From the NCBI GenBank assembly GCA_017436575.1, contig JAFSCU010000044.1, positions 1 to 61,782 of the forward strand: a DNA stretch of 61,782 nt, read 5' to 3'. The position numbers and the translations under genes were made by a program. Within the stretch, counting starts at the first letter, position 1. Each line of letters opens with the position of its first letter. The notes under the pieces were generated by a model. That model was not told where the DNA came from, searched no databases, and worked only from the letters and a program-made list of their open reading frames with translations. This document shows, one piece after another, positions 1,210 to 22,183 of the stretch. Source of the DNA: Oscillospiraceae bacterium (GTDB taxonomy: Bacteria > Bacillota > Clostridia > Oscillospirales > Ruminococcaceae).

Positions 1210-2430
1210 CTATTTGATAATCTTGTACTCTTTCAGCAGGTCTACCCTGCTGCCGGCAATTTTCAGTGAATCTATCGCCGAATTGCCTTTTGAACTGCGC
1301 AATTCTTTTGCATAAGTCATTGCACGGCTGGCCCAGGCTTTTGGCAAAAGATAGGGTTTCTTTTCAAGGTACGGGTATCTTGACTGCAGTTTTTCTGCAG
1401 GTGGGAACAGGGTGCCTTTCAGACTTTTGCCTGCTTTTTTGCCTTTTTTGTCCGCTACAACAGCATCAAGAGTAACATTGCTGCTGTGTCTGCGGCTCAT
1501 TGTGGAACCACCGAAAACACCGCCCGAAAGCATATCGGCCAGCATATTTGTTTCGTCCTGTGAACAGGCTGACCAACCGGCAGGATAATTGGCTTTTTCT
1601 TTGTCAAAAATCAGATATTTTTCACCGATTCTGAACAGTGTAGCGGCAAAAACATCCGCATTTATTACTTTGCAGTTGTCAAAAACTTTTTGCCAGTCTA
1701 TCTGTGCGCCATAAGCATTGGCATAGATAACAATGTCGCAAACCTGGCGGATACCAAAGCCGCTGTGAATAAAATGTTTGAATGCATGGCATATAAGATA
1801 AAACAGATGGTCTGTATGGTTTAATGTCATAATGCCGTCAACCATAACAGCATTGTCGAAAACATCTGTAAAAAAGCTGTTCCAGTTGCCATAGGCCTGT
1901 GAATCAGGCGGAAAAAGAGTTTTATGCAGTTCTATATACAGTGGACTGCCTGTTTTTCTGAAAGGGATTTCGTATTCGGTGGTAAATCTTTCTGCAGGTG
2001 TTTCTGTATCAAGACCAAATTCTTTGAAAATCTGTACACATTTTTCAAATTTATCCTGCGGGATAAGCATATCTTCATCTGTGGAAAGACGCAAATCCGG
2101 CTGTGGATACAGACTGCGGCACACATAACCTTTTACAACCAGCGGAGTGCAATCAGCCTCTTTCAGTTTGCTGTAAAGCTGTAAAAACTCGGTTGTTTTT
2201 ACGGTTTGCAGCATAACCAGCTGGCGCACTTTGCTGCGCAGTGCCATTGACCCGGACAATGCAGGGCAATTGTAAACCGCCTGATAAATCAGCGGCAATA
2301 CATTGTGATACTGTGACAGACTGAAAATCTGTGTCCACTGCTCCTGTGTGATGTTGTCTGTGTCAGTGTAGGTCTGTGCCTGTAGTGCCGACTTTAAAAT
2401 ATTTAAAAACAAGGTGTAGATTCTGTCCAT
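1210..2430 (-). CDS. NTP_transf_5-type nucleotidyltransferase family protein of the peptide-modification operon
   Basis: 406 residues. The segment LVVKGYVCRSLYPQPDLRLSTDEDMLI (residues ~97-123) matches the core of the uncharacterised nucleotidyltransferase family PF14907: KG, then R.S.D.D, with D118 and D120 as likely metal ligands. The rest is helical with a long basic C-terminus (KKGKKAGKS). Members are often found beside HPr-kinase-like proteins and PqqD-like proteins in lasso-peptide and other RiPP loci. In pseudomycoidin biosynthesis such an enzyme, as I recall, decorates a phosphorylated C-terminal residue. Here it is last in the operon, 100 nt after the RRE gene with a hairpin between, and has its own GGAGAAAG site. 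Family call strong; substrate inferred. Confidence 0.8.
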   Translation of the reverse strand: MDRIYTLFLNILKSALQAQTYTDTDNITQEQWTQIFSLSQYHNVLPLIYQAVYNCPALSGSMALRSKVRQLVMLQTVKTTEFLQLYSKLKEADCTPLVVKGYVCRSLYPQPDLRLSTDEDMLIPQDKFEKCVQIFKEFGLDTETPAERFTTEYEIPFRKTGSPLYIELHKTLFPPDSQAYGNWNSFFTDVFDNAVMVDGIMTLNHTDHLFYLICHAFKHFIHSGFGIRQVCDIVIYANAYGAQIDWQKVFDNCKVINADVFAATLFRIGEKYLIFDKEKANYPAGWSACSQDETNMLADMLSGGVFGGSTMSRRHSSNVTLDAVVADKKGKKAGKSLKGTLFPPAEKLQSRYPYLEKKPYLLPKAWASRAMTYAKELRSSKGNSAIDSLKIAGSRVDLLKEYKIIK

Positions 2431-2486
2431 CTTTCTCCGTCCGTCAAAGAAATGTGTTTATAATAGAAAATTGATATGTTTCTTTA

Positions 2487-2530
2487 CATTAAAATCCCTT
2501 TTCTGAACGAAACAGCACGGGGATTTAATG
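2487..2530 (-). terminator. Intra-operon hairpin between RRE and nucleotidyltransferase genes
   Basis: CATTAAATCCC and GGGATTTTAATG (minus strand) pair over 11 bp with one bulge and a ~20-nt loop, starting directly after the stop of the PqqD-like gene. There is no T-run, so it is more likely a processing or partial attenuation element than a full terminator. Confidence 0.5.
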
Positions 2531-2794
2531 TTAATCTATAATCTGCATTTCACGCAGTTTGCCGAGGAATTCAGCAGTGTCTTTTGCAGCTTCTTCCTGT
2601 GAAACTTCGTATTCTTCCAGTATTTTGGCAACAATTTCTTCCTGTGTATCCAATTCTGGAAGATTATCCCAGATAAATGTTGCCACTTCATTAAGGACAA
2701 AAAGCCCGTTTGAATCATAAACTGTTTTACCAACAGGCACAAGAATTGTATCACCGGCAATATCGCGTTTAATCAGCTGTTTTTTAATTTTCAT
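2531..2794 (-). CDS. PqqD-like RiPP recognition element (RRE)
   Basis: 87 residues starting MKIKKQLIKRDIAGDTILVP. The fold pattern is that of PqqD: short beta strands (GDTILVPVGKTVYDSNGLFVLNEVATFIWDNL), then helices with EEIVAKILEEYEVSQEEAAKDTAEFLGKL. The N.VATFIWDNL segment and the following EEY.V are diagnostic. PqqD-like proteins bind leader peptides and deliver them to modifying enzymes. The start at 2794 is chosen because the longer frame only reads back into the radical SAM gene; the two overlap by 11 nt, implying coupled translation and a stoichiometric partnership with the radical SAM protein. Confidence 0.88.
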   Translation of the reverse strand: MKIKKQLIKRDIAGDTILVPVGKTVYDSNGLFVLNEVATFIWDNLPELDTQEEIVAKILEEYEVSQEEAAKDTAEFLGKLREMQIID

Positions 2795-3914
2795 CTTCTG
2801 TTTTCCTTTCCTGATAAGCTTTCCAGGTTTCCTGTATGGTGGCTTCTGTCTGCTGACATACATAGGACGGTACACCGTCAAAACGGCCGGTTTCTGTCAC
2901 ACACACTGCGGCGCAAACAGGGCATACAGGGCGTTTAGGGCAGGCTGTGCACTGTGGAGGTATGCGGATTTCCGCCGTTTTTTCAACTATGGTTTTCCAG
3001 GCAGATTCAAAACCATCTTCCAGCGGATAAGCTGCAGGGCCCGGCATCATTCCACAAGGCAGCATACGGCCATCCCATGTCATCCAGAATGAAGATGAGC
3101 CGGCACGGCAACCTACGCCTTCGTCCAGGTCTGCTGGGCAGTCAGGTTCATCAACCGCAATAAGATTTTTCATATTTTCTGCACGAAGCATAAACTCTTC
3201 TTCAGTAAAACGCTGTTTATCCCATCTTACACTGCAACGTGCTGCTTCCAGTGGAGACAGCCTGTCTCCATGACCATACTGCCCACCGTTGACACGGATA
3301 GATGGGTACATATAGCTGGAGGCTTTTGCGTGAAGGCCGAGTTCCTGTGAAATGGCATATATTTTTTCAATATCCTGCTGATTGTAAGGTGTGATTGATA
3401 CATTGAGACGAATATCTATACCAGCCTCTTTTACAGCACGGATATTTTCAATAACTTTATCAAATGCAGCCTGGCCGCACATATTTTTATATGTTTCTGT
3501 GCAACCGCCATAAAGGGAAACATTTATGCGGAAAGGTGGGTTTTCAATAAGTTTGCGCAATATTTCCCCTGATAGCATAGAGCCGTTGGTGTTGATTGAA
3601 ATCATCAGCCCCATTTCTTTCATTGCATCATATATTTCAAAAAAGTCCTTGCGCACAAATGGTTCGCCCCCTGTGAGAAGGACAAAAACCATACCCATAT
3701 CCTTTGCCTGTCTGGCAATGTCAATCCACTGCCGTGCTGTAAGTTCTTTGCCCTGCGCCTGTATATCATCATTTTTCAGATGCACATAGCACATAGGACA
3801 ATCAAAATTACAACGGGCTGTCAGTTCAAAATTGCCACCGATTGGCAATTTTAGCCTGCGCCCTTTACTGTGGAGATATGTGGCTATATAAGGTTCTGTA
3901 TTAACTTTTTTCAT
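2784..3914 (-). CDS. Radical SAM/SPASM domain peptide-modifying enzyme
   Basis: 376 residues. ELTARCNFDCPMCYVHL carries the CxxxCxxC cluster motif (C35, C39, C42) and TGGEP follows at 82-85. The C-terminal third has the SPASM arrangement: GVGCRAG, LPCGMM, then CTACPKRPVCPVCAAVC and a final YVC. Such proteins install thioether, C-C or epimerised residues in ribosomal peptides, or act in cofactor maturation. It starts directly after the HPr-kinase-like stop (ATG adjacent to TAG), is preceded by GGAGGGAG, and overlaps the RRE gene. The likely substrate is the 84-residue peptide encoded upstream at 5586-5840. Chemistry cannot be told from sequence; an anaerobic sulfatase-maturase-like role is less likely as no sulfatase is present. 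Confidence 0.9.
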   Translation of the reverse strand: MKKVNTEPYIATYLHSKGRRLKLPIGGNFELTARCNFDCPMCYVHLKNDDIQAQGKELTARQWIDIARQAKDMGMVFVLLTGGEPFVRKDFFEIYDAMKEMGLMISINTNGSMLSGEILRKLIENPPFRINVSLYGGCTETYKNMCGQAAFDKVIENIRAVKEAGIDIRLNVSITPYNQQDIEKIYAISQELGLHAKASSYMYPSIRVNGGQYGHGDRLSPLEAARCSVRWDKQRFTEEEFMLRAENMKNLIAVDEPDCPADLDEGVGCRAGSSSFWMTWDGRMLPCGMMPGPAAYPLEDGFESAWKTIVEKTAEIRIPPQCTACPKRPVCPVCAAVCVTETGRFDGVPSYVCQQTEATIQETWKAYQERKTEDEN

Positions 3915-4778
3915 CTATATTTCTCCCTCCAAAGCCTTTTCCAAAGCGATAACTGCGGATTCGTCAGGTATACATGCAAGGTAATAGACCGGAATATTTT
4001 CAACAATATTCTTTGCCAATGTTGAAACCTTTTCCATATCATCCTTATCCCAGGTGTTTACACTTACACCTTCCCATACCTTTGAAAAAGCCCGGTAGCC
4101 TTTGATTCTTTTAATTGTTGTAACAGGTGCCTGTGCCAGATATACAACAGCTTTCAACGGTAATGTACGATTTTTACAGTATTTTGAACTGCCGGCAAAG
4201 GGTATGCCACAGGCATATATTTTGCCGTCAACATTTCTTATCGCTGCCCTGTCACCATTGATTATCTGCGCCCCTCTATATTTATTCCACAGGTCCGCCT
4301 GTGTGGATTTGCCTGTTTCTGAAGGTGCAGTAAACAAAATGGCCTCGCCATTGTGTTCTATATAAGAACAGTGATATACCACACCGCCGGCCTGGGCAAT
4401 CAGATGCTCTGCCGCCAGTGATGACAGCACTGTATGGGTGCCTACCCTATCTGTAAACTGTGATTTTTTCAGCTGGACATTGTGGTTGTAATCTTTATGT
4501 TCTGCACGGATATATGCATTTTCCCAGCTTTTTTCCACTGAACCTATATATCGCACAGATGCACCATTTTCACTGTATACACGGAAACCCGGCTTTTTCG
4601 CCACGCACTGACCGGTTGGCTGTGTAAGTTCTTCGCAATAATCAAAATTAAAAATATGTGGATTTTCTACAGTTTCTACTGCAAAAGGAGCAAGGAATCT
4701 TTCATCTGTATACATTATTTCTTCCGGCATGATAATCTGATATTCCACACCGGCAAAACAGTAATTCTTTATTTTCAT
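3915..4778 (-). CDS. HPr kinase/phosphorylase-like kinase
   Basis: 287 residues with an HprK-type P-loop at 151-159 (APSETGKST) and INGDRAAI at 173-180 in place of the HprK LVGDD segment. The N-terminal half lacks the regulatory domain of true HprK. Homologues in lasso-peptide clusters phosphorylate the C-terminal serine of the precursor. Here the candidate precursor ends in NLFNS, so a similar reaction is conceivable. The gene lies 3 nt after the lipoprotein gene and abuts the radical SAM gene, so all are co-translated. True HPr regulation is unlikely because of the context and missing domain. Substrate is inferred. Confidence 0.8.
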   Translation of the reverse strand: MKIKNYCFAGVEYQIIMPEEIMYTDERFLAPFAVETVENPHIFNFDYCEELTQPTGQCVAKKPGFRVYSENGASVRYIGSVEKSWENAYIRAEHKDYNHNVQLKKSQFTDRVGTHTVLSSLAAEHLIAQAGGVVYHCSYIEHNGEAILFTAPSETGKSTQADLWNKYRGAQIINGDRAAIRNVDGKIYACGIPFAGSSKYCKNRTLPLKAVVYLAQAPVTTIKRIKGYRAFSKVWEGVSVNTWDKDDMEKVSTLAKNIVENIPVYYLACIPDESAVIALEKALEGEI

Positions 4779-4781
4779 GGT

Positions 4782-5504
4782 TTAAACAATAGTAACAAAC
4801 ATAATAGCCGTGCCGGATTTTGACAGGTGAGCACCAACTACCTGGCGGATTTCACCGGCTTTAAGGCCACCAGTGATTCGGCTACGGTATGTTATGCCGC
4901 CATAGTACAAGTCAGCCGCACTGTTTTTATAATAAACCACAATTTCGCCATCAATGTCGTTATCTGAAATATTTGTAACGTTGATAACTCCATCCAGCAC
5001 CTGCAGTTCCAGTTTATCTGTCATAAGAGATGGTTCCGCACTGAAAAGTGCCAGATTTTCTGTTGTGACAGTTGTATAGGCTGTGTTTTTGTCATAAGAC
5101 ATTCTGGTCTGTTCCAAAAGAACAACAGACTGGCCCGGTGGCAAGGTTGTCAGTTCAAACAAGCCATCTGTTTCGCCTGTTTCAAGGGTAATTTTTGCAT
5201 ACTGGACTGTTTTATCCCCTGTGTTTTTTACTACCATCATCAGCACACCGGAAACAACTTCATCGCTGCCGTCTTCCATATAGATGCCGGTGTAACTGCC
5301 GATGTCGGTAATTACCAGCCCATTATTAAGATTTATATAATGTTCTTCTAACTGGTCAGCAGATGCCTGCTGACTATTATCCGGCAGCGCCGGCTGTGAA
5401 GATGAGCCGGAATTCGCAGCGCCGCCACAGGCTGTAAAGAACGATAATGTTGTGATAATTGCCAATAAAGTGGCAATCAGTTTTTTGTTTATAAGTTTTT
5501 TCAT
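4782..5504 (-). CDS. Putative lipoprotein of the peptide operon
   Basis: 240 residues. A basic N-terminus (MKKLINKK), a hydrophobic stretch and SFFTAC|GG give a lipobox with C26 as the probable lipidated residue. A Ser/Gln/Asn-rich linker follows, then a beta-rich domain resembling FxLYD or other immunoglobulin-like domains (GVLMMVVKNTGDKTVQYAKITLE, then VVYYKN). No enzymatic motif is visible. It lies between the peptide gene and the kinase, so it may hold or recognise the mature peptide or the giant surface protein at the membrane. That role is inference; the lipoprotein call is well supported. Confidence 0.8.
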   Translation of the reverse strand: MKKLINKKLIATLLAIITTLSFFTACGGAANSGSSSQPALPDNSQQASADQLEEHYINLNNGLVITDIGSYTGIYMEDGSDEVVSGVLMMVVKNTGDKTVQYAKITLETGETDGLFELTTLPPGQSVVLLEQTRMSYDKNTAYTTVTTENLALFSAEPSLMTDKLELQVLDGVINVTNISDNDIDGEIVVYYKNSAADLYYGGITYRSRITGGLKAGEIRQVVGAHLSKSGTAIMFVTIV

Positions 5505-5535
5505 ATTTTGCCTTTAAAAAGTATTTGCCATATAA

Positions 5536-5567
5536 AGAAGGCCGCGCCGCAACCGGCACGGCCTTCT
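5536..5567 (-). terminator. GC-rich hairpin after the precursor gene (likely partial terminator)
   Basis: On the minus strand AGAAGGCCG pairs with CGGCCTTCT (9 bp) and inner GCCG/CGGC pairs extend it. It is followed by TTTATAT, a weak T-tract. It sits just after the stop of the 84-residue peptide and before the lipoprotein gene, where many RiPP operons use leaky termination or 3'-end protection to make more precursor than enzyme. Confidence 0.65.
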
Positions 5568-5585
5568 GGCTTTAAGTATTAGAAA

Positions 5586-5840
5586 TTATGAGTTGAAGAG
5601 GTTAGTATCTGAATCTGGAACATGATAACAAGGAAAGTTAAATGCACCTTCTGCTCCCTCAGGTATCTGAAGACCAGTACATCCAGTTACTCCTTCCAAA
5701 AATACAACTAAACCACCTGTTTCATAGCCACAATCGCCACTATTAGCACCTTCTACTTTAGTATCACAGCCTGCAGCTATATTTATACTGAGAGTAAAAT
5801 CTTCAAACATAATTTCAGGTTTTGAATATATTTTTTTCAT
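5586..5840 (-). CDS. Candidate RiPP precursor peptide (84 aa, four Cys, KPE-leader, NIAAGC motif)
   Basis: The product opens MKKIYSKPEIMFEDFTLS followed by INIAAGC and a 59-residue Gly/Cys-rich remainder with Cys at 25, 37, 54 and 71, ending DSDTNLFNS. Such openings (KKxYxKPxxxFExFxLSxxIAAGC) are, from memory, common to short Firmicutes peptides near radical SAM genes. The first ~20 residues would act as leader for the RRE and the rest as core. There is no signal peptide, as expected for a RiPP. It has a strong GGGAGGG site and lies 13 nt after the giant gene on the same transcript. Alternatives: a small structural protein without modification. Confidence 0.7.
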   Translation of the reverse strand: MKKIYSKPEIMFEDFTLSINIAAGCDTKVEGANSGDCGYETGGLVVFLEGVTGCTGLQIPEGAEGAFNFPCYHVPDSDTNLFNS

Positions 5841-5853
5841 ATAGTTCCCTCCC

Positions 5854-8800
5854 TTACCATCTGAATATATTGTTTAACAAGTTTGAAACGAAATTGATAA
5901 CAGTATTAATTACATTGTTAATAACAGTTGTTGTGTTATTGCCATTGGATGGCTTATTGCTGTTATTTGGTTTTTCGTTTTCTTTGGCAGGTTTGGATGG
6001 TTTACTATTGTTGTTTTTATCCTCTCCCTTACCAGGTTTAGATGGTTTTTCAGGCTTGTTATTGTCTGGTTTTTCATCCTTATCAGGTTTAGAAGGTTTT
6101 TCTGGTTTGTTATTACCAGGTTTTTCATTTTCTTCTGGTTCTGGAGTTGGAGTAACCTCAGGAGTTGGCTCTGGAGTTTCCTCTGGGTCTGGTGTAGCAT
6201 CAGGTGTTGGTTCAGGTGTTACTTCCAGTTCCGGAGTTTCTGTAATTGTATTATCAATTTCTGGTTCCTGAACCACTGGTGCACGCATTCTCATAAGCGC
6301 GAATGTTGCAGCCTCTGGAGTCATTCTCAACATTGCAGGTGAAATAGGTTCAGTTTTATATGTTGTCTTTATATTTGTCAGTGACAGAATAGGACTAACA
6401 ATTGTTTCTTCACCAGATGTTGCGCTTTCACTAACATTTTTGATTGTTATTACTCCATCTTCAGCATATTTCAAGATGCTGTAATACATATCAGTTGTTG
6501 TGTCTACAGTAAAGGAATCACCATTGATTTCATATTTTACAGAATTGCCATTTGCAACTTTTATACCAAGCTGAACATCTGCAACATTTGCTGTATCAAC
6601 GCTAAATGCAATAGCCTGACCAGGTGCCAGATAAAGTTCATTGTTAGGACCATAACTTACATAGTCAGCTATTGATGTTGTTGCATCATTGCAGTCAATA
6701 AAGATTGCACCGCTTAAATCGTTACCTGTTACTGTTACTGTGCCATCTTCATTTTCTGTTGTAACATAGTTAGAAGCTGCAATGATATTATTACGCAGTT
6801 CCTGATATGTTGGCCAGCCTTCGCCATCAGCTACGTAAGCATTATTAGCTGTATCATTTATGTTACCTGTTGGGTCGTAGATACGTATAGCATCAAGATA
6901 CAGATCATATTCACCAGAAGCTGTTGTATGATCATAGAATTCAATATATAATGCTGTGATCTTCACTGTATACTGACCGTATTCCAGACCTGACATCTTG
7001 ATAACAGGAACCTGATAAATTGCTTCTGGATTATTAAGTGATATAGAGCCGTCTGCATTCATACCATAGTATGTGTCAACCATTGTTGTTTTATATGCAG
7101 AACCAGTTGCTGAATCACCTTTATAAACCTGAACAGTAATGCTACCTGTTGTATTGCTTGTCATGCTGATTACATCGAAGCCAGTACCCCAGAATGTAAA
7201 CACTGCTTCTGCGCGTTTATTCAGGTTAACTGTAGTTTTTGCAGCTGAGCCCATAGAATAAGTAGACATTTCTTTATATGCGCTGTCATAACCATAGTTG
7301 TTATCAGCATCCAATGTGGCACTGATTTTGCTTTCGCCTGGTCTGTCTTGATCCTGTACACCATTCTGTACAGAGTTTGAATCCCAGCCAGCTTTGCCGA
7401 TGTATTCTGTTGTGTTGCCGTCGCCATCAGCATCGGCTGTGTCAGGTTCAAATGTTTTCAGGTCTACAAAATCATCTTCATAGTAAATAGTAGTCGCTGG
7501 GATTACTGTTACTTTTGCATACATAAATGCATTTGTCAGAGTATTTGGATCTGCACTGTTCTTTATGTAGCTGATTGGAGATTCGTAGTAGAAATCAACA
7601 GGTTCGTCAAACTGCATTGTATGCTGTTTGAAGCGAATCTTACTGTTGGCTTCAATAGAGATTGTGTAACTGCCGTCTGGGGCTGTTACAGGGTTCTTTG
7701 TAAGCCGGTTTTTGCCGTCCTGTGGTTCATAGAAGCCTGTGTTGAGTACAATATTAGCTGGCAATTCGTTTGCATCTGTAGCTATACCAATAACTTCGTT
7801 ATTCAGCAGATAGTCATTACCTACAACGTCGATAAGCACATCAAGACCATAGTCTACAACAACTGTATCGTTGGCAAGAGATTTGTTCCAAACAACTGCG
7901 AATGCAACTGTTGTGTTATGGAAGTCAAAGTTGTTATGTACTCTGTTGTCTGTATGCTTTTTAACGATTGTGTAAACCTTGCCATTTTCGTCTACATAGT
8001 AGATATAGTTGCCAATCTGTGTACCGCCTGTCACACTACCGCCTGCATCCTGAATTTCTTTTATAGTTGCCTGTGTTTCACCTTCTACAGGTGTGTATGA
8101 TTTACCATTAAGGTCAACAGTGTAAATTGTTACACCATCTAATTCACTTGTTGTATATTTAGCACCTTCGATAATAGCACTCTTACAGAAATAGTAGCCG
8201 TCTGTTTTTGCATCATCTATATATGTGCCAGGAACAGTGTATTTTGTTGCATCAGCCTTTGTATTGAATACATATGTAGTATTTTTGTCTGCTGCACCTT
8301 CGATTACAAAGTGGTTGTTCAGGTTAACCTGTTTTTCATCTTCGTAAACATGAATATTGTATGCCGCACTTTCGTCATAAAGTCTGAATACGTCTGGCAC
8401 CAGGTCTTCAGCAAGATATTTTGCTTCCAGACCTGCAGACTGTTCCATATCGTTCCAGATTACGTGTTTTGTAAACACATCTGTGATGTAAACAGCTTCT
8501 GCAAATGGAACTACACGGCCCAGACGGTTAACAGGCTGACCATCTTCATTTACAAGGTAGAATGTGTAAGATACCTGTGCACCATTCCAAGTCATCTGTG
8601 GTCTTGGGAATACCTGCTGTACTTCTTTATCCTGAAAGTTTGTATATGTCAGTGTAGCATATTCGTTAGTGTAATATGTACCGGCAGGAATCTGATTTTC
8701 AACATCTGTACCTGCTGAGTTGTCAAGATATGCAAAGTACTGCAGTGCAAGTTCTGTGGAGGAGATTTTTTCTTCTTTCCATGTCAGATATTCGCCATCT

Positions 8801-11800
8801 GCCTTGCCTTTGTTTTCATATGTGAAGTATTTACCTTCAATTTTTGTGATAGTATTTGCTGCACCATCCACTGTGCCTACAGTTACATGTGCACAGTTAG
8901 CGCAGGCTGTGCCATCAACTGTATGGCTTACAAGCGCACCTGTTTCACCATCAAATGTGAAGTTTTCCTTGATAGTAGGGTCGCCTGTACGTTCTTTATT
9001 AGCATCCAGTTTATATTCAGCAACCTGGATATAGAAATCTTCCAGGCCGTCTGTTTCCTGGGAAGTGATGCCTTCTGGTAAAGCAAAGTTGATTGTATAT
9101 TTATTGCCTACTTTATCTTCTACCACAACATTTTTTGCAGCTTCCAGAATCTGCTGGGAAATGTTGCCGAAAACGTCCTTCATATCTGCTGCTGCGTTTG
9201 CGTCAGCAACGGAGAAGAAGTATTTATCAAGTTTGGAAACAGCATTACCTGTATCACGCTGTGCGGCAGTTTCGCCTGCTGGACCGGAAATATCGTTCAG
9301 CAGCATATTGGATACGCGTTCACATTCTTCTGCAGTTGCACCGTTGAGGGAACTGTTTGTACCATGAAGGCCCAAACCTACAGAATAAACAGTAACACCA
9401 TCCTGTTTCATCAGTGATGACCAATGTTCATATTTGTAGTTATCGCCACGAGTTGCATATTCCACTCTGTCAACTGTAGCAAACATTTCCGCCATAGCAC
9501 TTGAACTGGTAATTTTATCATTTGCCCCTGTGCCATATCTGTATACGTTAGGAATACCGTCAGACATAAATACACAGAACTGTTTGTTGCCATCTGCTTT
9601 AGATGCATTAAGAATATTATAACATTCTTCAAAGGACTGGTCATATTCTGTGCCGTATGGTGGATTTTGTGGTTTCACAAATACTGTATCGATTGTACCG
9701 TCATTTTTTCTTGTACCATCAGCATTTCTTGTACCAATCAATTTATCCAGTTCGTCAGCACTATTAATAATCTGATAACCATCTTCTTCATTGGTTGTCA
9801 TTAAATTGATACGGAATTCATGTCTTGACTGACCAGCATATTCAGGGTTACCACCGGCAAAGCTGCCGATATAAATACGGTTATCGTTAAATGTGCCGTC
9901 TTCATTGATTACAATGTTTTCTACAAACGCTTTAACAGCAGCTCTTGTAGCAGCCATACGTGAATCTGTCATAGAGTTGGAGTGGTCCAGCATAAGGACA
10001 ACATCCAGTCGGTTATCTTTTGTAAAAGGTACACCTGTCATAGACAGCTCTACCTGTGCAATACCTGTTTCAGAATAGTTACCTACTGCTGTTGCAGTTT
10101 TGTCAAAACGGATAGCACCTTCTGCAGGGTATGTTGGGAAGTCGTTTGTACCATCGCCTGGAACAACGTAAAGAGACTGTGTTACAGAAAGTCTGATTGT
10201 ATCTGTTACAACCTTACCATCTGCACCTTCGTAAGAAACTGTAACATCTATGTCGCCATAGCTTTTGCCTGTAAATGTGATAAGGCCTGTTACAGGGTCA
10301 ATCGTAGCGATGGATGTATTGGAAACAGTCCATGTAAGATCTTCGCCAAGACGGCCGATATCCACACCTTCATCACCTGCGGCAGCATGGGCTTTTACAA
10401 CTGCCCATACAGCATATGTATCGCCTGCTTTTATGCCTTTAAGTGCAACCGGTTTATCAATAACATCGCCTACTTCAAAAGTATTTGTATAGTACTGTGT
10501 GCCGGCCACAAACTCTGTTGCCAGTTCATAACGGTTTTTGGTTGAATCATATGTATAGTATTTGTTTGTAACAAATGTGCTTTCTGTTACTTCAACCGGT
10601 TTAAGCTCTGCTTTATGCAGTTCTACAGAGTAGAAGGCTGGTGCTGTGGCTGTAACAGCAAATTCAGTATATGCTGTCAAATCACCTGATGTGTATGTTG
10701 CCCTTACAACTGCGGTGCCTGTAACGCCAGAAAGTGTAGCAACACCATTTTCAATTTTTGAAATAACACCAGGAGTACCTTTATCATCACCTGTCATTAC
10801 TTCATATGTTGGAGTAAGGCCAGAGGAAGATGTGATATCTGTAGGTGTTTCAGCACCCTCTACAAGATCCCAAAGTTTAGATGTAAGGTTAACAGTTGAT
10901 TCTTTAACTGCTACGGTTTCAATATCGTCAGCTGTTACAGAATATACATGGCCTGGTTCGCCAGTAACTTCATTAACAGTTGTTGGAACGTAGAAGTAAA
11001 CACTTCTGCCTGAAGCGCTATTTGAGTTTGTGACATACCAACCACTATTATATCGGAGATAATATGTACTACTATTTCTTGTATAACTCAATCTATGATT
11101 GCTAGTGTTATAAGACCAAGTTGTTGAGCTATCATCAATTCTTGGTGGATTATTATTACTACTTGCACGATACAAATAGCCATCTTCGCACTCAAATGTA
11201 TAGTTGCCAGCTACTGTCCACAATTCATCTGTAGCATCATCAAGTTCGATATATGTGCCGATTTCTGAATCTGTTTTTACAGTAACACCTGTTGCCGCCA
11301 CAGAACCATTGTTATTGGCAAGCGCATAGTAAGAACCTGCAGAGTTACCATTAACAATCAGATAAGAATTATTTGCAGAGATACTGCTTGTAAGTACATA
11401 AACTGTTTTTGTTGTAGTTGTCTGTGTGCTTTCAACAGTTGCATCTCCACTTTCCAGATTAATAGTAGCACGATCGCCTACTACATATGTGGAGAAGTGT
11501 GTAGTTGTGAAAGTTACAGTACCATTGTCGTTAACTACTGCCTGCATATCCACAGCAGATTTACCACTGTCAGAAACATAGTAAACAACAGGATCTGTTA
11601 CGCCGTCAGGTACTGGCAGAGTAACCGTTTTTTCGCTGTCATTTGCTTTGTAACCTTTTGCAAATTCAAGAGAAATGTCGTATGCTTTGTAGTTACCTGT
11701 TACACGGTTGTGAATGGCTGTTGCAACATTTTCATTTGCAGAGTCAACAGCTGTAACGCCTGTCAGGCCATATTCGCCTTCGCCTACGGAAATTGTGATA

Positions 11801-14007
11801 CCATTTTCAGTAATTTCTTTGGCCCAAGTTTTGACAACAAATGTAACTGTTTCGCCACCATAAGAAACTGTTACAGTTTTTTCGCCGTAGGAGCCTGGCT
11901 GCAGGCCTTCAAATGAAAGTGCATAACCATCTGTTTCTTCATTGAAGTTGTTCCAGAAAATTTCTTTTGTGTATGTTTCATCATCGAGAACATAGTTTGC
12001 TGTTACTGACATGCCAGTGATGTCAAGGTAGATAACATAAGACTGCAGGTCTTCATTATAAACAGCGTCTATGTCGAAATAGTCAATTTTTGTTGGTGGA
12101 ACCAAAGCAATGCTGTCAAGCACAGCATCTGCTGGAATATTTTCAGCAGGAGTGCCGTAAACATATTTACCCATAGCGGCATTTTCGATAGTAATGTATT
12201 CCACATCATATTCGTCTTTTGCCACTGTATAAGATGTAACAGCTTCATATTTGCCAGTTGTTTCGTTGTAATGGTATACAACAAGGTTATTTGATTGCAT
12301 TCCGTCAGGGTCAAGCCACAGTTTAACTGTAGCTGTTGTGCCTTCCACCTGGCCATCAAGGCTGATGTCATAGCCAAACCAATAAGACATAAGTTCTTCA
12401 GCTTTGCTGTCTTCATCGATTGCTGTGAGTTCAGCACCAATTGCTGTAGCAGTTACTGCTGCAAATGTATCTTCTGAATAGTATGTCTGTTCTGCTGGAT
12501 TAACAGTAATATTAAATGTAGCTGTTTTTCCTTCATAGGTTATAGTAACGGTTTTTGTGCCGGCTGTGGACATATCAACAGCAGACAGTGTGTAATCTGT
12601 AACTGATGCTGTTGTATTATCGCTGTATGTAGCTGTAACTACAAGACCTGCTGTGTCAAGTGTATCGCCAACTGTGTACACTGTTTTTGCAGGTGGTGTT
12701 ACTTCGATAGAAGAAATTGTAGCAGCTGGAACAATACGAGCAATAGTGTTTCTGGATTCGCGTGTATCAACATGATATTTATCAACTGTAATTTCTTTAT
12801 CTGTGATTGTCAGCAGAGTTGCCCTGTTAATTGCTTTACCAGTAACAACATCATTACCTAAATATCCAGCGTTGGCATATGTAAAGTAGATTTTTATATC
12901 AGTTGAACCATTACCAGTTGACTGTACATTAAGTGTGCTGTTTGGTGCAACATAGTATGCGTTTGTATCTCTTGAATCTTCATTGGTATGGTTATGACCC
13001 CAGAAGAAAAGAACGTTGCGGTCAATAATGTCATCATCGCCAGCTGCAACTGTATTCAGTGCATTTGCCCAATAAGTTGCACCTTTGTTTTCACCACGGC
13101 GATAATGCATTGGCACGTGGGAAACAACGATAATTGCTTTGGTTTTGTCTACACCTTCGCTATTTGCCCATGCCACAAATTCTGCTGATTCAGGCTGTGC
13201 AGCTGATGGTACAACCTTACTGCCATTGTAAATACAGTCGGCTGTTACACCATAAACATAGAATTTGTCGCCTTCGTAAAGCAAACCTGCTTCAGGATTA
13301 TCCAGGAAAATACCCACATCATCATTCGTACCATCATCATGGTTACCAGCAACTATATCCATATTTGTAGCATCAATGCTTGATGTAGCTGCTGTTACTT
13401 CAGCAAGTATTTTTGATGTTTTATACTCAGGATCGTCATTAGCAGTACTGTCAATATCGCCACCCAAAGCAAGGTAATCCAATTCATTTTCGCCGATATC
13501 TTCTTCCATACCGTTAATCATTGGACCCATAGCAGTAGCAATGTGATGGCGGTCTGTTGCAACAAACAGATAATCGATATCTGTTTTGCTGCCAACCACT
13601 CTGCCTGCTTTTGGCTGAACTGTTGTGAGTTTAGTAGTTGGCTCTGTCGAAGGTTCAACAGATGGTTCTACTGATGGTTCAGCAGTTGGTTCTGTTGAAG
13701 GTTCAACGGAAGGCTCTGTTGATGGTTCTGCAGAAGGTTCGGTGGAAGGTTCTGCAGTGTTTTCCACATCAGAAATATCCTGACTGCCACCATTTAAAGT
13801 GTTGTCAGTTTCTTCCTGATTTTCAACAGGGGTTTCTGTTGGGTCTGGTTGTGTGGTTGCTTCAGGAGATGGGGTAACTGTTTCGGTTACCTGAGTTTCC
13901 GGCGCAACCGGGGTTGATTCTGTCGCAAAAGCTGCCAGTGGCAGGCTGTTAAGTGAAATGGAAACAGCCAGGACAAGAGCTAATATACGACTGAGTTGTT
14001 TACGCAT
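5854..14007 (-). CDS. Giant secreted surface protein: calcineurin-type phosphoesterase, Ig-like repeats, VWA domain, Pro/Lys-rich tail
   Basis: 2717 residues. A signal peptide (cleavage near [10 protein letters not shown], residue 28) is followed by a [12 protein letters not shown] linker (~84-124). The phosphoesterase domain (~143-430) has DRH at 152-154, GGDID, GNHD, SHVPMH and GHNH, so all metal-ligand motifs are present. Ig-like/Big domains follow at ~431-505, ~625-730 and ~1126-1276. A VWA domain at ~1330-1560 has the MIDAS DHSNS, and further beta-rich segments fill to ~2580. The tail (~2583-2690) is PEPTP then KPEKPSKP repeats, ending in an Asn-spaced aliphatic segment and IFRW. No LPXTG or SLH motif is seen. 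Probably an extracellular phosphoesterase/adhesin; substrate unknown. AAGGGA precedes the start. Confidence 0.88.
5985..6230 (-). repeat. KPEKPSKP / PEPTP low-complexity tail coding repeats
   Basis: Degenerate in-frame tandem repeats in the giant gene encode alternating PTPE and then NKPEKPSKP units rich in Lys, Asn, Asp and Pro. They would form an extended wall-spanning stalk just before the C-terminal hydrophobic segment. Confidence 0.8.
13636..13757 (-). repeat. xEPS tandem-repeat linker near the N-terminus of the giant protein
   Basis: About ten 12-bp units encode AEPS, TEPS or VEPS tetrapeptides immediately after the N-terminal acidic region. Nearly identical units make this stretch prone to length change by slippage. 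Confidence 0.85.
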
Positions 14008-14249: not shown

Positions 14250-15365
14250 TTATTCTGTGGCAGGTGACTGTTCTGCTTGTGGCTGCTGTTGTACAAAAAG
14301 CTGTGGGTAGAGAAATTCTTTCAGAGTTTCAGAATTTTTTTCAAAATCCACTGCAAACATATTTCTGCCGCCCATACCCACCATACTGCCGAAAGTATCC
14401 TGTGCAGGAACTGTCATCTGCTGGGTAGTGGTTTTGGGCAGAACTGGGATAAGTTTCATCAGTTCAGCCACTTTTGATTCTGGAATATTTGTTTTCACCA
14501 ATGGCAGAAGCGAATCTATAATTGAATCCAGTTCATCAAAGGATTTGTTTTTGCATTTTTCGATAACTGAAATAACAATTTCGCGCTGGCGCTGGATTCG
14601 CACCCAGTCATTGTCTATATAGCGCAGGCGGGCATAGTACAGGGCTTTTTCACCGTCAAGGTGATTTTCTCCCACTGTAATATTATGGTAGCCTGCTTTT
14701 ATAAAGGCATCTGCTTCCGCCTGGTCGAAGTTTACAGTAACGCCGCCCAATGTGTTGATTGCGTGGATAAAAATATTGAAATTTATTCGCACATAGTAAT
14801 CCACATCAACTTTGAAACAGTGGCTGACTTCCTGCATCAGCAGTTCAGCACCGCCATAGCGGAATGTATGGGTAAGCCAGTCCCACTGGCCTGCATAAGG
14901 GCCTTCCAGTATAGGCACACCCATACCGCGTTCTAGACTGACAAGGGAAACCACAGGGGCTTCGCCAGACATATTGACCGAAAGCAGCATACAGGCATCG
15001 CCACGGGCATTGTCACTGTAAGAGCCATCTGTGCGTTCGTCGGTGCCAATGAGCAGGACATTGAAAACATTGTCGTCCCAGACTATATTGCCATCAGCCA
15101 GTACTGATTCCATAGGACTTAAACCTGCCAGGACTGTGGATTCACGCATTGCTTCGGTCAACTCATCACTGGCATTGACAGTGCCTTCGTAATCTTCTGA
15201 ATAGGATTTGCTGTTGCTGTCATTGTATATTTTGGAATACTTGCTGTGAAAATAGCCGTATACCAGCACAGCCAGCAATAAAATCAGTATAAGAAATATA
15301 AGCAGCACTGTTCTGAATATTTTTCTTTTGGGGCGGTTTTCGCCATTTGTAAGATTATCTTTCAT
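14250..15365 (-). CDS. LytR-CpsA-Psr (LCP) family cell-wall glycopolymer ligase
   Basis: 371 residues: a short cytoplasmic basic start, one membrane segment (~20-42, LLIFLILILLLAVLVYGYF) and the extracellular LCP domain. Signature pieces are VLLIGTDER, SDNARGDACMLLSV, SLVSLERGM, and YARLRYIDNDWVRIQRQREIV with the conserved arginines that bind the lipid pyrophosphate. LCP enzymes transfer undecaprenyl-linked glycopolymers to peptidoglycan. It follows the BY-kinase genes by 12 nt and closes the capsule-control run, so it probably attaches the glycan made by the downstream-numbered island. A ~240-nt gap with a new promoter separates it from the giant gene. Confidence 0.9.
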   Translation of the reverse strand: MKDNLTNGENRPKRKIFRTVLLIFLILILLLAVLVYGYFHSKYSKIYNDSNSKSYSEDYEGTVNASDELTEAMRESTVLAGLSPMESVLADGNIVWDDNVFNVLLIGTDERTDGSYSDNARGDACMLLSVNMSGEAPVVSLVSLERGMGVPILEGPYAGQWDWLTHTFRYGGAELLMQEVSHCFKVDVDYYVRINFNIFIHAINTLGGVTVNFDQAEADAFIKAGYHNITVGENHLDGEKALYYARLRYIDNDWVRIQRQREIVISVIEKCKNKSFDELDSIIDSLLPLVKTNIPESKVAELMKLIPVLPKTTTQQMTVPAQDTFGSMVGMGGRNMFAVDFEKNSETLKEFLYPQLFVQQQPQAEQSPATE

Positions 15366-15377
15366 TTTCAGCCCCCA

Positions 15378-16784
15378 TTATTCTTCATCATCCCTGCCGC
15401 CGTAGCTGCCATAATAACCATAGCCGTAACCGTAATAGCCTGATTTACCTGACTGTGGTGTAGTCATATTTATAATGGTACCCAGGATAGGTTTGCCTGT
15501 ATCGTTAAGGCTTTGGGCTGCTTCAAGAATCTGCCGGCGCAGTGCATAATCCTGACGGACCGTAAGAATGCTGGCATCTGCCCACTGACCTATTTCTGTG
15601 GCATCTGCCATCATTGCTGACGGTGGTGTGTCAAGAATTATGTAGTCAAAGGATTTTTTCACTTCCTCCACAAAAATGTGGGCTTTTCTGTTATTCAAAA
15701 GCATTACCGGATTGTCCACCGGTTTTCCGCCAAGAACAACAGAAAGATTAGGTGTTTTGCTGTTGCAATAAATGCTGTTTATGTCGCATCGGGCTTTAAG
15801 AAACTCGCTTAAACCGTTTTGATTTTCAATGCCAAGAACACTGCCAACAGACGGATTGCGAAGGTCACAGTCTACCAGCAAAACTTTTTTGCCTTTTTGT
15901 GCCAAAGCTGTAGCAATGTTTATGGAAACTGTAGTTTTACCTTCGTTTGGCAATGTACTGGTAACCAGCAGAACTTTGCCTCCGATTTTATCAAGGGCTC
16001 TTTCCACACGGATACGGAGAAGACGGACAGATTCATTAAAGCCGAATTTATCGTTTCTGTCATTTACAACAGGACATCTGCCGTTTTTGATACCGCGGAC
16101 TTTTGGCATACGGCCGATGCAAGGCAGGTTGATAACACTGCGCAGTTCTTCTTCCCCTGAAACAGTTCTGTGGGTTGCCCAGTAGAAAAATGCCAGACAG
16201 CCCCATATTGCAAAGCCTGCAAAAGCACCCAACAGACCTGAACGGATATAATCCGGTCGGTTTACAGGCTGGGTTGGCATACCGCTTTCGTCCAGCAATG
16301 CCAGTTCTGTGGAGCCTACCACAAATTCAGCAACTGTAGGGTAGTTTTCTATAACACAGTTAAGCACATCATACGCCACCTGTGGGTCAGGTGAAGTAAC
16401 TGTAAGGGTAAAAATATTTGTATTGCCCACTGCGCTTGCCCTGACATCTGGCATTGCAGTAATACCCAGCTGTTCCTTTACCCGATCACTGAGAAGACCG
16501 TTGGTAAGAATCTGCGGGAAAGTTTTTGCCATCTGTTCCGCTGCAGAGTTGTTGTAATACTGCTGTGTGGAATAGAATGGATTTTTCATATGTACTGTAA
16601 AAGATGCACTGGCCTGGTATCTTGGATAATAGCTGTGCCACACACGGAAGCACATAACCGATGTGGCAAGTACAACCAGCAGAATACCCGGCACCAGCAG
16701 GCGCATTGCGCTTTTTATCAGCCCTCTGATAAGGGCTATCAAGTCAATTTTGGGATATACATTATCCATATATTTATTATTCAT
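15378..16784 (-). CDS. Wzz-BY-kinase fusion (capsular tyrosine kinase, copy 2)
   Basis: 468 residues. N-terminal Wzz-type segment with two membrane helices (~24-46 and ~185-205), then a cytoplasmic BY-kinase domain: Walker A TLPNEGKTTVS, Walker A' VLLVDCDLRNPS, Walker B YIILDTPPS. The C-terminus is a tyrosine cluster (GYYGYGYGYYGSYGG), the expected autophosphorylation tail. In most Firmicutes the two halves are separate CpsC and CpsD proteins; here they are fused as in Gram-negative Wzc. The start overlaps the stop of copy 1 (TAATG), so both copies are co-translated. Controls polysaccharide chain length and export. Confidence 0.9.
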   Translation of the reverse strand: MNNKYMDNVYPKIDLIALIRGLIKSAMRLLVPGILLVVLATSVMCFRVWHSYYPRYQASASFTVHMKNPFYSTQQYYNNSAAEQMAKTFPQILTNGLLSDRVKEQLGITAMPDVRASAVGNTNIFTLTVTSPDPQVAYDVLNCVIENYPTVAEFVVGSTELALLDESGMPTQPVNRPDYIRSGLLGAFAGFAIWGCLAFFYWATHRTVSGEEELRSVINLPCIGRMPKVRGIKNGRCPVVNDRNDKFGFNESVRLLRIRVERALDKIGGKVLLVTSTLPNEGKTTVSINIATALAQKGKKVLLVDCDLRNPSVGSVLGIENQNGLSEFLKARCDINSIYCNSKTPNLSVVLGGKPVDNPVMLLNNRKAHIFVEEVKKSFDYIILDTPPSAMMADATEIGQWADASILTVRQDYALRRQILEAAQSLNDTGKPILGTIINMTTPQSGKSGYYGYGYGYYGSYGGRDDEE

Positions 16785-18262
16785 TATGTATTCTCCTCAT
16801 CATTGCTTGCTTTATAGTATTTCCGGTTGCTTTTACCATAGCCGTAACTGCCGTATTTTCCATATTTACCGTATTTTCCATACTTACCGTATTTACCATA
16901 CTGATAAACAGGAGTAAAGTTGTCAGAACCGTATACATTGTTAAGAACACAGCCCAGAAGATGACTGTTTCTTTCCAGCACAGCCACCGCATCGTTTACT
17001 GCCTCGGCTGTTGCTGCATTCTGGCGGACTACCAGCAGAGATGCGTCTGACAGTTCGCTGATGTTTTCGGCATCAGATGCTGCTGACATCGGCGGCACAT
17101 CGATAATGATAATATCGTAGTTTTCTTTTGCTTCACCCAGCATATTTTTCATCGCTTCAGAGTTCAGCAGACCTGTTGCTGTTTTAAGGCTTTTGCTGCC
17201 TGCCAGCAGATAAATATTCTGCGTTTTCAGATATTTCACAGCATCGCCCAGTTTTGCCTTGCCTTTGAGCACATCGGCAGTGCCATAGCCCAGTTCTTTT
17301 ATATCAAATATAAGGTGCAGTGACGGTTTGCGCAGGTCACAGTCAACAAGAAGGACTTTTTTGTCTTTCTTTGCCAGTGAAATAGCCAGGTTTGCGGCCA
17401 CTGTGGATTTGCCCTCGTTTTCAAGGACACTGGTTATCATAACGATATGTTCGCCCTTGTGTCTGCGTTTGTCCACACGGCCAGCCAGTTTGTTGATAGC
17501 TTCTGTATAGGCAAAACTGGTAACAGGGTTTGTGATAAGAATGCTTTTCCTGCTTTTGCCAAACAGTGTTTTTCTTTTCTTTTCGTGATAAAGTTCTCCC
17601 AGAACATAACAGTTGAGCTTTTCGTCCGCTTCTTTTCTGCTGCGGATTTTGTCTGACATATATGCCAGCACAGCCAGAAGACCTGACACTGCCACAGCAA
17701 ACGCTATGGCAACTTTTACAACAGTTCCAAGTATGTCCGGAGGGTTTACAGGATTGGAAGGTGCTGCAGGATAGGAAAGCACTTCCATAACAGTGCCTAT
17801 CAGCGCCTGCTGTGAAACCACATGGTGATGTTCGATAACGCCTTTGCACATAAGAAAAACAGTGCGTGGGTCCGAACCTGTAACTGTCATTACAAGAAGA
17901 TTTGTATCACCTGTAACTGATGCAGAAATAGTGCCGTCAAAATAGGATAATCCCATTTCTTCCAGCACCTTGCGGCGCAGGATTGAACTGTTCAGCACTT
18001 CTTTAAAAACTTCAGCAGTGCTGTTGGCCGCACTGAGGTTTGTATATGATGTGCTGGTAGGACTGTCAGAACTTACAACAAAGGTTGCAGATGCCTTGTA
18101 AACCGGTTTGTATGTAAAGTCAACAATTACAAATGTAAGCATGGCGGCAATAAGCACTGACGCCAGAATCACATACCATTTTTTCAAAACATCCTGAACG
18201 ATAGTTATAATCACACCTACGGACAACTGCTGACCGGGAATAGCTGTATTGATTTCGCTCAT
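16784..18262 (-). CDS. Wzz-BY-kinase fusion (capsular tyrosine kinase, copy 1) with YGK-repeat tail
   Basis: 492 residues, same layout as its neighbour: Wzz part with membrane helices (~30-50 and ~180-200), Walker A VLENEGKSTVA, A' VLLVDCDLRKPS, Walker B IIIIDVPPMS. The C-terminal tail carries five consecutive YGK units followed by SYGYGK, encoded by 9-bp tandem repeats, and so has many closely spaced tyrosines. The two paralogues are clearly diverged, indicating an old duplication; they may form a mixed octamer. Dephosphorylation is probably by the PHP phosphatase encoded at 19188-19937. Three nt separate it from the Ig-like membrane protein gene. Confidence 0.9.
   Translation of the reverse strand: MSEINTAIPGQQLSVGVIITIVQDVLKKWYVILASVLIAAMLTFVIVDFTYKPVYKASATFVVSSDSPTSTSYTNLSAANSTAEVFKEVLNSSILRRKVLEEMGLSYFDGTISASVTGDTNLLVMTVTGSDPRTVFLMCKGVIEHHHVVSQQALIGTVMEVLSYPAAPSNPVNPPDILGTVVKVAIAFAVAVSGLLAVLAYMSDKIRSRKEADEKLNCYVLGELYHEKKRKTLFGKSRKSILITNPVTSFAYTEAINKLAGRVDKRRHKGEHIVMITSVLENEGKSTVAANLAISLAKKDKKVLLVDCDLRKPSLHLIFDIKELGYGTADVLKGKAKLGDAVKYLKTQNIYLLAGSKSLKTATGLLNSEAMKNMLGEAKENYDIIIIDVPPMSAASDAENISELSDASLLVVRQNAATAEAVNDAVAVLERNSHLLGCVLNNVYGSDNFTPVYQYGKYGKYGKYGKYGKYGSYGYGKSNRKYYKASNDEENT
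16846..16901 (-). repeat. 9-bp tandem repeat encoding YGK units
   Basis: Alternating TACGGTAAA/TATGGAAAA-type nonamers (seen on the plus strand as TTTACCGTA and TTTTCCATA) encode the tyrosine tail of the BY-kinase. In-frame slippage would change the number of phosphorylatable tyrosines without breaking the gene. Confidence 0.8.
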
Positions 18263-18264
18263 TT

Positions 18265-19173
18265 CTATCCCTCCACTACCACATTAAGGCGTGTATAGCC
18301 TTTGTAACGACCGCCTAAGTCCACCATATATGTAACTGAATAAAGACCTGGGGTTGTGGTATCTACATCACTTTTCATTTCAACATTTATAATGTTTATA
18401 GTTGGGTTTATGCTTGGATTTACATATCTGTTCACATAAACCATAGTGCCTGCTTTCCAGTCGGCGACAAGAGGATACTCCTTTGTGCCTACAACAAGGT
18501 TCTGGAGGTAACTTTCAGGCCGGAATTCTCCGCCCTGCTTTACATAAACCAGATATTCGCTGAGTTCCACAGTGGCATTGTAAGTGCCTGCATCGTAAAC
18601 TTCCACAGGCAGTGTGATACGCTGTGTGTCACCCATACTGTTTGTCACACGGAATTCTATCTGATGTTCGCCAGGATAGTTAAGGCTGGTAGCTTCGCTG
18701 AGCAGTGTGCCCTTTACCCTGTCGCTGATATCGCCGTCAATTTTGTCTGTTGCAGACACAAAACTGAGCACATCAGGTGCGGTGTTGCTTGCAAAAACAA
18801 GGGCCTTTGTCTGACCGAATACAGGTGGTGTATAATCCCTGAATTTTACTGTTCTGGTTGCCTTTGACACATTGCCGGCAGAGTCATACGCCACATAGGT
18901 AATATATGCAGTATTTTTTGCTGTAAATTTGGAAAAACCTTCAATAAGAATGCTGGAGGTAACATCTCCGTCCACATCATCAGTTGCAGTTACGCCTTTC
19001 AGCAAAGCCTTTTCGTTGGCAGTAACAGAAACATTCAATATTTCTGAGTCAATATGTATTTCAGGTGGCTGCCTGTCATCTGACAGCACAAAAAGAAAAA
19101 CATAAGCTGCTGTCAGTATTGCACAGAGCAGTACAAGCATAGACACAAATAACTTTTTATTCTTTATGTTCAC
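18265..19173 (-). CDS. Membrane-anchored protein with DUF5011-type Ig-like domains
   Basis: 302 residues. N-terminal signal-anchor helix (~9-30, LFVSMLVLLCAILTAAYVFLFVL) and an extracytoplasmic part with two Ig-like repeats, each with the DDVDGDVTS / DKIDGDISDR calcium-site-like motif followed by YVAYDSAGN or EFRVTNSMGD, typical of the Cry22Aa-like (DUF5011) fold. A third beta region follows. No catalytic motif. Its position between the phosphatase and kinase genes suggests a structural or regulatory part of the capsule export complex, perhaps sensing or binding the polymer outside. Role is inference. Confidence 0.75.
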   Translation of the reverse strand: MNIKNKKLFVSMLVLLCAILTAAYVFLFVLSDDRQPPEIHIDSEILNVSVTANEKALLKGVTATDDVDGDVTSSILIEGFSKFTAKNTAYITYVAYDSAGNVSKATRTVKFRDYTPPVFGQTKALVFASNTAPDVLSFVSATDKIDGDISDRVKGTLLSEATSLNYPGEHQIEFRVTNSMGDTQRITLPVEVYDAGTYNATVELSEYLVYVKQGGEFRPESYLQNLVVGTKEYPLVADWKAGTMVYVNRYVNPSINPTINIINVEMKSDVDTTTPGLYSVTYMVDLGGRYKGYTRLNVVVEG

Positions 19174-19187
19174 CTTTTCTCCTCCCT

Positions 19188-22135: not shown

Positions 22136-22183
22136 TTTCCACTTCCTCTGAAACTTTATATATGATTTATTATCTACAAACAA

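Follow-up and report, generated by a model that had tools for sequence, protein, structure and literature searches.

The window analysed here is a stretch of 61,782 nucleotides (nt) of contig JAFSCU010000044.1 from an Oscillospiraceae bacterium (assembly GCA_017436575.1). A preliminary description had placed in it, between positions 1210 and 5840, a cassette for a ribosomally synthesised and post-translationally modified peptide (RiPP), and we confirmed all six of its genes there, on the minus strand: a Cys-rich precursor peptide, a membrane-anchored protein, an HprK-like kinase, a radical S-adenosylmethionine (SAM)/SPASM enzyme, a discrete RiPP recognition element (RRE) and an NTP_transf_5 nucleotidyltransferase-like protein. 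That gene set proved too small, as a gene directly upstream encoding a giant surface protein also belongs to the cassette (Table 1). As a computational statement it holds that two peptide-modification tool sets converge on one conserved precursor, and the earlier reading stood in this respect, with RRE, HprK and NTP_transf_5 of the type found for lasso peptides or linear polyphosphorylated peptides (LPP; Popov et al., Nat Commun 2026, PMC13381572) joined to a radical SAM/SPASM enzyme.

The radical SAM protein matched Radical_SAM (PF04055, 2.1e-27) and the Pfam SPASM model stayed below its cut-off on the window protein (15.1 vs 21.5 bits). Across 33 aligned sequences the CxxxCxxC motif (C35, C39, C42) and seven further, C-terminal Cys of auxiliary-cluster type (C269, C287, C322, C325, C331, C334, C353) were invariant. 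Compared with the PDB a profile of the family gave SkfB as its best match and was matched over most of its length by 5v1q ('Radical SAM'), which we take to be SuiB. The kinase had no meaningful match in Pfam and a match below cut-off to ScmC (TIGR04249, 2.2e-7), and its family profile found the HPr kinase/phosphorylases 1jb1 and 2qmh as best PDB matches (E 0.0008) with 1ko7 weaker (0.038), the alignment spanning the His, the P-loop and the Asp. These residues (His136, P-loop Lys157 and Asp176) were invariant in 33 aligned sequences. For the RRE, which matched PqqD (PF05402, 3.8e-17), the best NCBIfam model was lasso_PqqD_Bac (38 bits, cut-off 80); both lasso PqqD models were matched by all 27 aligned RREs (E <= 0.001), the window member lying below both cut-offs. 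The best PDB matches of its profile were TbiB1 (1.2e-11), TfuB1 and records 9x8z and 9x90, titled as a PqqD family protein and lasso PqqD chaperone. The nucleotidyltransferase matched NTP_transf_5 (PF14907, 3.4e-43). Of 20 genomes identified by way of cassette loci (those of the window and of the distant locus L028 included; L and G numbers are our labels for loci and genomes), 18 had this family over cut-off, compared with 27 of 148 in a sample of the window's family that includes its own genome, a raw comparison in which kinship is ignored, and in 12 of the 20 it shared a contig with the peptide within about 20 kb.

Neither the peptide nor the lipoprotein had a convincing family match in Pfam or NCBIfam. 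A family profile of the lipoprotein gave weak PDB matches only (best E 0.1), and in some relatives this protein looks anchored by a transmembrane segment rather than lipoprotein-like. In an alignment of 15 peptides Tyr5, Pro8, Glu13, Cys37, Phe47, Cys71, Tyr72, Phe82 and Ser84 were invariant. Profile searches yielded 47 distinct peptides that were scored, and 48 with that of L145, a small open reading frame (ORF) with a YxxP start lying 17 nt behind a giant gene and picked by eye; with the L091 peptide cut by a contig end, 47 of the 48 are complete. A YxxP leader, read from the peptide starts, is present in all 48 and at least four Cys in 44. A C-terminal Ser, a feature of paeninodin-type precursors, ends 45 of the 47 complete peptides and is penultimate in the other two, which end in SY and SF, while Ser accounts for 7% of residues in the 15 positions preceding the C-terminal residue. 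Being homologous, and mostly recovered with a profile covering the C terminus, the peptides are not independent draws. Clustering at 40% identity gave 14 clusters, of which 11 had Ser ends throughout, two were those of the SY and SF peptides and one contained the cut peptide. The Ser end was also kept in L145 and in L085 (TERS) and L088 (TQIS), the latter two having been matched by their N-terminal part only.

Used as a query against our collection of genomes, the radical SAM protein returned 21 loci, many from ruminant or other gut Oscillospiraceae and Clostridia assemblies, 14 of them with a recognisable peptide of the window peptide's family. The order giant protein, peptide, membrane protein, HprK, radical SAM, RRE was kept in 10 of the 14, the exceptions being L022, which has no membrane protein, and the differently arranged L025-L027; because this gene order recurs we regard the cassette as more than a chance assembly. 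Among the seven loci without a recognised peptide, in L023 and L024 the contig begins with the membrane-protein gene, in L012 no peptide adjoins the enzymes and peptides are encoded elsewhere in the genome, L018 consists of radical SAM and RRE only, and L028-L030 are distant loci. Few neighbours outside the cassette were common to the loci and some of these turned out to be exporter and capsule genes. Two variants were also seen: L109 (1-14846), from the same contig as L025, carries two cassettes in tandem, with giant protein, peptide, HprK and radical SAM present in both, and at L011 (99-4784) the cassette is complete except that its giant gene is broken into three ORFs, which may reflect gene decay or an error of sequencing. 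The distribution of the cassette is patchy. The radical SAM protein (E <= 1e-40) occurs in five of 297 genomes of the sample of the window's family, its own included, and the peptide in one of the 297, the window's own; in a sample of the order the peptide model matched 12 of 394 genomes, two of them weakly and with no cassette gene nearby. Searching plasmids for the radical SAM protein gave no match.

The order-wide search also recovered 14 distinct peptides at loci not fetched by an enzyme. Peptides occurring mostly apart from the enzymes, the outcome that the preliminary description had named as speaking against its reading, were not seen, with HprK or radical SAM lying within 6 kb of 11 of the 14 (HprK near ten, both near eight) and the domain of the giant protein described below near ten. 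With 19 further copies added, from genomes where a cassette had been found before, these figures became 25 of 33 for HprK or radical SAM and 28 of 33 for the giant domain. Seven of the eight peptides lacking enzymes have a giant protein (three at contig ends) and one (L086) has none. For the lone pairs of giant protein and peptide at L080, L100, L101 and L108 the genomes carry the enzymes elsewhere. Duplicate peptides of overlapping loci and peptide-model matches below 35 bits (one at 21 bits, L111) are excluded from the counts; the weak matches L094-L096 (E 0.003-0.01), whose surroundings, as far as read, contained neither cassette genes nor a peptide, are outside the 47.

The giant gene ends 13 nt before the start of the peptide. 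Its 2717-amino-acid product has Big_3 and vWA domains and, further along, a conserved stretch of about 300 residues, without a Pfam match in either of the two giants scanned, whose profile gave weak PDB matches only (best E 0.07). Of the 47 distinct peptides, 41 have this domain within 6 kb; 33 directly follow, in the same orientation, the gene of the giant protein bearing it, and 26 do so after 12-20 nt. When a domain profile built from 38 stretches was run on the same 394 order genomes as the peptide model it matched 12 genomes, ten of them shared with the 12 peptide genomes. The two genomes with a peptide only are weak peptide matches (E 0.006 and 0.0095), and of the two with a domain only G492 carries the diverged L145 peptide and G456 is cut by a contig end. 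At L085 and L088 the domain is split and was seen only in the search of the order sample. Distance matrices for 30 loci correlated at r 0.80 between peptide and giant domain and at r 0.85 between peptide and radical SAM, and the partial correlation of peptide and domain given radical SAM was 0.28 (3 of 2000 permutations as high); since shared descent explains most of this we take it as weak support only for co-evolution. By eye, some relatives of the giant protein have ends that we take to be LPXTG-like and others have a Pro-rich stretch followed by a short tail.

Table 1 Features of the cassette and its surroundings (window coordinates)
Feature	Position	Strand	Basis
NTP_transf_5 nucleotidyltransferase-like protein	1210..2430	-	PF14907
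Discrete RRE (PqqD family), nearest to lasso RREs	2531..2797	-	PF05402, PDB profile matches
Radical SAM/SPASM enzyme	2784..3914	-	PF04055, invariant Cys
HprK-like kinase	3915..4778	-	family profile, invariant His136/Lys157/Asp176
Membrane-anchored extracytoplasmic protein, lipoprotein-like in the window	4782..5504	-	
Stable hairpin, terminator/attenuator-like, between peptide and lipoprotein genes	5500..5590	-	
Precursor peptide, 84 amino acids: YxxP leader, Cys-rich core, C-terminal LFNS	5586..5840	-	
Giant secreted surface protein, 2717 amino acids (Big_3, vWA; Pro/Lys-rich C-terminal part)	5854..14007	-	
Conserved domain of about 300 amino acids in the giant protein (residues ~2257-2553)	6349..7239	-	
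Capsule operon genes between exporter and giant gene	14250..19937	-	
Signal-peptidase-like protein, 154 amino acids, candidate leader peptidase	19969..20433	-	
MsbA-like ABC exporter, 585 amino acids, candidate peptide exporter	20426..22183	-	

Between the peptide and the lipoprotein genes lies a hairpin (-32.8 kcal/mol, z -4.5) that is as expected for a read-through terminator holding enzyme levels under that of the precursor. Just outside the cassette on the plus strand (798-1145) is a small protein resembling the Spo0A C-terminal domain (PF08769, 1.6e-8), adjoined by a small ORF (500-808) that matches HTH_3 weakly.

Further upstream in the window is a pair of genes that the preliminary description had overlooked, for a signal-peptidase-like protein and an MsbA-like ATP-binding cassette (ABC) exporter, which overlap one another. 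They lie upstream of CpsB/CapC, Ig-like, two Wzz/BY-kinase-like and LytR-CpsA-Psr genes that lead to the giant gene. The best model for the 154-residue protein was TIGR02228, a weak match at 20343-20143 (32 bits against a cut-off of 51.85). Its SM.PFL, HR and GD motifs, presumably the Ser, His and Asp of a signal peptidase, are conserved among relatives. The exporter was closest in NCBIfam to MsbA_rel (1.8e-77, below its cut-off). Our genome counts for a peptidase or exporter near the cassette refer to 19 cassette genomes (G000 and G659-G676) and cover the stretches read, on contigs of limited reach. A search with TIGR02228 gave some match in 16 of the 19, three over cut-off and none of these at the cassette. 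Among all loci read, a profile of the peptidase matched 13 (the window, L022, L029, L090, L099, L107, L116, L117, L153, L156, L168, L171 and L192) and the exporter was found by profile in 12. At L090 the exporter adjoins radical SAM, and peptidase and/or exporter directly adjoin HprK in the distant cassettes L029, L116, L117 and L119. These distant cassettes combine HprK and radical SAM with peptides that are other or unrecognised (L116 and L117 being in genome G134), and together with their exporter and peptidase they probably represent a wider family.

The claim that the locus works without a lasso cyclase or protease fared unevenly. The lasso B2 protease (PF13471) was over cut-off in none of the 19 genomes, with weak matches below it in three, and no lasso cyclase (Asn synthetase-like) was found among the cassette proteins scanned, no genome-wide search having been made for it. 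The cassette may nevertheless not be protease-free, as the signal-peptidase-like protein and the MsbA-like exporter are encoded on the same contig. A C39 peptidase-exporter was rejected as a general route of leader removal, its model being over cut-off in only four of 19 genomes.

The region 14250-42800 of the window is a capsule or exopolysaccharide cluster with LytR-CpsA-Psr, two Wzz/BY-kinase-like proteins, CpsB/CapC, glycosyltransferases, WbsX, a pyruvyl transferase and LicD. As a general feature of the cassette this setting was not upheld by glycosyltransferase counts, the excess in seven upstream stretches over seven control stretches of cassette-holding genomes being too small to claim (PF00535 in 8 of 83 vs 5 of 89 proteins; PF00534 6 vs 3). 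The block of exporter, CpsB and Wzz genes near several cassettes, in a survey that covered cassette loci, is better evidence for it.

We consider it fairly probable that the locus encodes a RiPP system with two modification arms, one radical SAM and one kinase, tied to a cell-surface protein. The direct basis for this is gene content, conservation, pairing and motifs, from which we infer every modification. The giant protein and the precursor are probably co-transcribed, and the hairpin that follows the peptide gene probably reduces enzyme expression. Going by homology and motif the RRE of lasso or LPP type would bind the YxxP leader, upon which the radical SAM/SPASM enzyme would act on the Cys-rich core, most likely introducing thioethers or other radical cross-links. 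By analogy with paeninodin the HprK-like kinase would phosphorylate the near-invariant C-terminal Ser, and as in pseudomycoidin NTP_transf_5 may add a sugar or nucleotide onto that phosphate. Precedent in LPP and gene linkage suggest that the signal-peptidase-like protein cuts off the leader, perhaps near a conserved IA[AG] site, and that the MsbA-like ABC protein exports the product. Outside the cell the peptide would act with its giant partner, as their pairing suggests, perhaps through the conserved domain. The product would thus most likely be a radical-modified, C-terminally phosphorylated and exported peptide working with a surface protein. Only tentatively do we go further and propose a new RiPP class, whose peptide, cross-linked by radical chemistry and phosphorylated (possibly phosphoglycosylated) at its C terminus, would be made one per giant partner and held or presented by a new receptor domain of about 300 amino acids as a working part of the cell surface, the satellite pairs of giant protein and peptide being served in trans by one enzyme set.

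A number of observations weigh against this two-armed, surface-linked system. NTP_transf_5 lies within 6 kb of only seven of the 47 peptides, no giant domain is found within that distance of six of the 47, and the L086 peptide has no cassette gene nearby at all. In genome G532 the giants of L142 and L144 have no recognised adjoining peptide, the third (L143) ending at a contig end, and peptide distances follow radical SAM slightly better than the giant domain. A peptidase near the cassette was found in only eight of the 19 genomes and an exporter in seven, and as both sit with capsule genes in the window they could serve those instead. With regard to the C-terminal Ser, peptides of the distant, HprK-bearing L028 and L029 end in CR, SY and LN, one L117 peptide ending in Ser, and the LPP kinase acts on Ser3 of the core rather than on the C terminus (PMC13381572).

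Several of the same parts would also be present if the locus belonged to the LPP family and had acquired a radical SAM tailoring gene, with the giant protein a chance neighbour inherited along. RRE, HprK, NTP transferase, MsbA-like exporter and capsule locus all recur there, as may the signal-peptidase-like protein (PMC13381572). We find this explanation unlikely on the evidence of leader, enzyme and partner alike: the LPP leader pattern YxxPx[VI]LxHQ occurs in none of the 48 peptides, radical SAM lies within 6 kb at eight of the ten HprK-bearing peptide loci from the order-wide peptide search and in the distant cassettes too (these having been found through radical SAM), for which reasons it looks core rather than occasional, and the giant domain is paired with the peptide even where enzymes are absent.

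The radical SAM/SPASM enzyme with its conserved Cys, its best structural match SkfB and the Cys-rich core would also suit a secreted antibacterial peptide of the sactipeptide or ranthipeptide kind, in which only the radical SAM cross-links matter and the kinase is regulatory or serves self-immunity. Such a bacteriocin would leave the near-invariant C-terminal Ser without a reason, would be unusual in its pairing with a giant surface protein and would lack, in 15 of the 19 genomes, any C39 peptidase that passes the cut-off of its model; we judge it improbable. Least of all do we expect that there is no free peptide, the enzymes acting on the giant protein or on both, and the peptide serving the giant protein as a small partner or in its assembly. 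The tight coupling of the two genes, the occurrence of lone pairs and a good share of genomes in which the stretches read held no export gene near the cassette would be in keeping with such a role, whereas the leader motif and the RRE indicate that the peptide is an enzyme substrate, and the giant protein, with its signal-peptide-like start, would meet cytosolic enzymes only briefly.

The case gains weight from the C-terminal Ser, which fits the kinase, and from the link to a giant surface protein whose conserved domain belongs to no known family. The system would also bring two peptide-modification chemistries to one precursor, and it makes testable the question of whether a modified peptide acts on or in a surface protein. 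Within the open-access literature, judged mainly by abstracts and titles, we recognised no description of HprK and radical SAM acting on one peptide; PMC4289311 mentions an HPr kinase in a passage on lasso clusters and also contains the term radical SAM.

Among known systems, sactipeptides, ranthipeptides and streptide resemble the cassette in their radical SAM/SPASM maturase (best structures SkfB and 5v1q) and Cys-rich core. It differs from such RiPPs in its separate lasso- or LPP-like RRE, its kinase and NTP transferase and the scarcity of C39. SynChlorMet (ScmC-F, TIGR04248-TIGR04251) seems to combine the same three enzyme types, with weak matches for the kinase (ScmC), RRE (ScmD) and radical SAM (ScmE, ScmF), all far under the curated cut-offs for a cassette known here by its models alone.

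With paeninodin and pseudomycoidin the window system shares an HprK homologue, a precursor ending in Ser, a nucleotidyltransferase and a lasso-type RRE. According to PMC8498205, kinases of the paeninodin type target the precursor's C-terminal Ser, and in pseudomycoidin the phosphate receives hexoses from the nucleotidyltransferase. In contrast to the paeninodin type no B2 protease or cyclase was found within the scope given above and the precursor is longer and Cys-rich.

LPP biosynthesis, according to Popov et al. (PMC13381572), involves a signal peptidase I, a discrete RRE, an HprK-like kinase, an NTP transferase and an MsbA-like transporter in capsule loci, and the term 'radical SAM' does not appear in the text of that paper. 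Novelty had earlier been argued in part from the missing cyclase; with LPP already published as RRE, kinase and NTP transferase without one, cyclase absence alone is not new. The window system is like LPP in its discrete lasso-type RRE, HprK-like kinase, NTP transferase, YxxP leader and capsule locus with no cyclase seen, in its MsbA-like transporter and perhaps, by a weak match, in the signal-peptidase-I-like protein. It is unlike LPP in the radical SAM/SPASM enzyme, Cys-rich core, C-terminal Ser, giant surface protein and membrane protein. The LPP leader motif is given as YxxPxVLxHQxIxFETxxS and that of paeninodins as WxxP (PMC13381572), and as the former was not found we do not file the system as LPP. 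LppK phosphorylates Ser3 of the LPP core several times (same source), so HprK homologues differ in their target site. In leader recognition, phosphorylation and export the window system nevertheless probably works like LPP. LPPs and paeninodins often lie in capsule loci, their roles and the final LPP product being described as unknown (PMC13381572), and the cassette offers a handle on that role, with a similar kinase pathway and a radical enzyme genetically linked to a domain-tagged surface protein.

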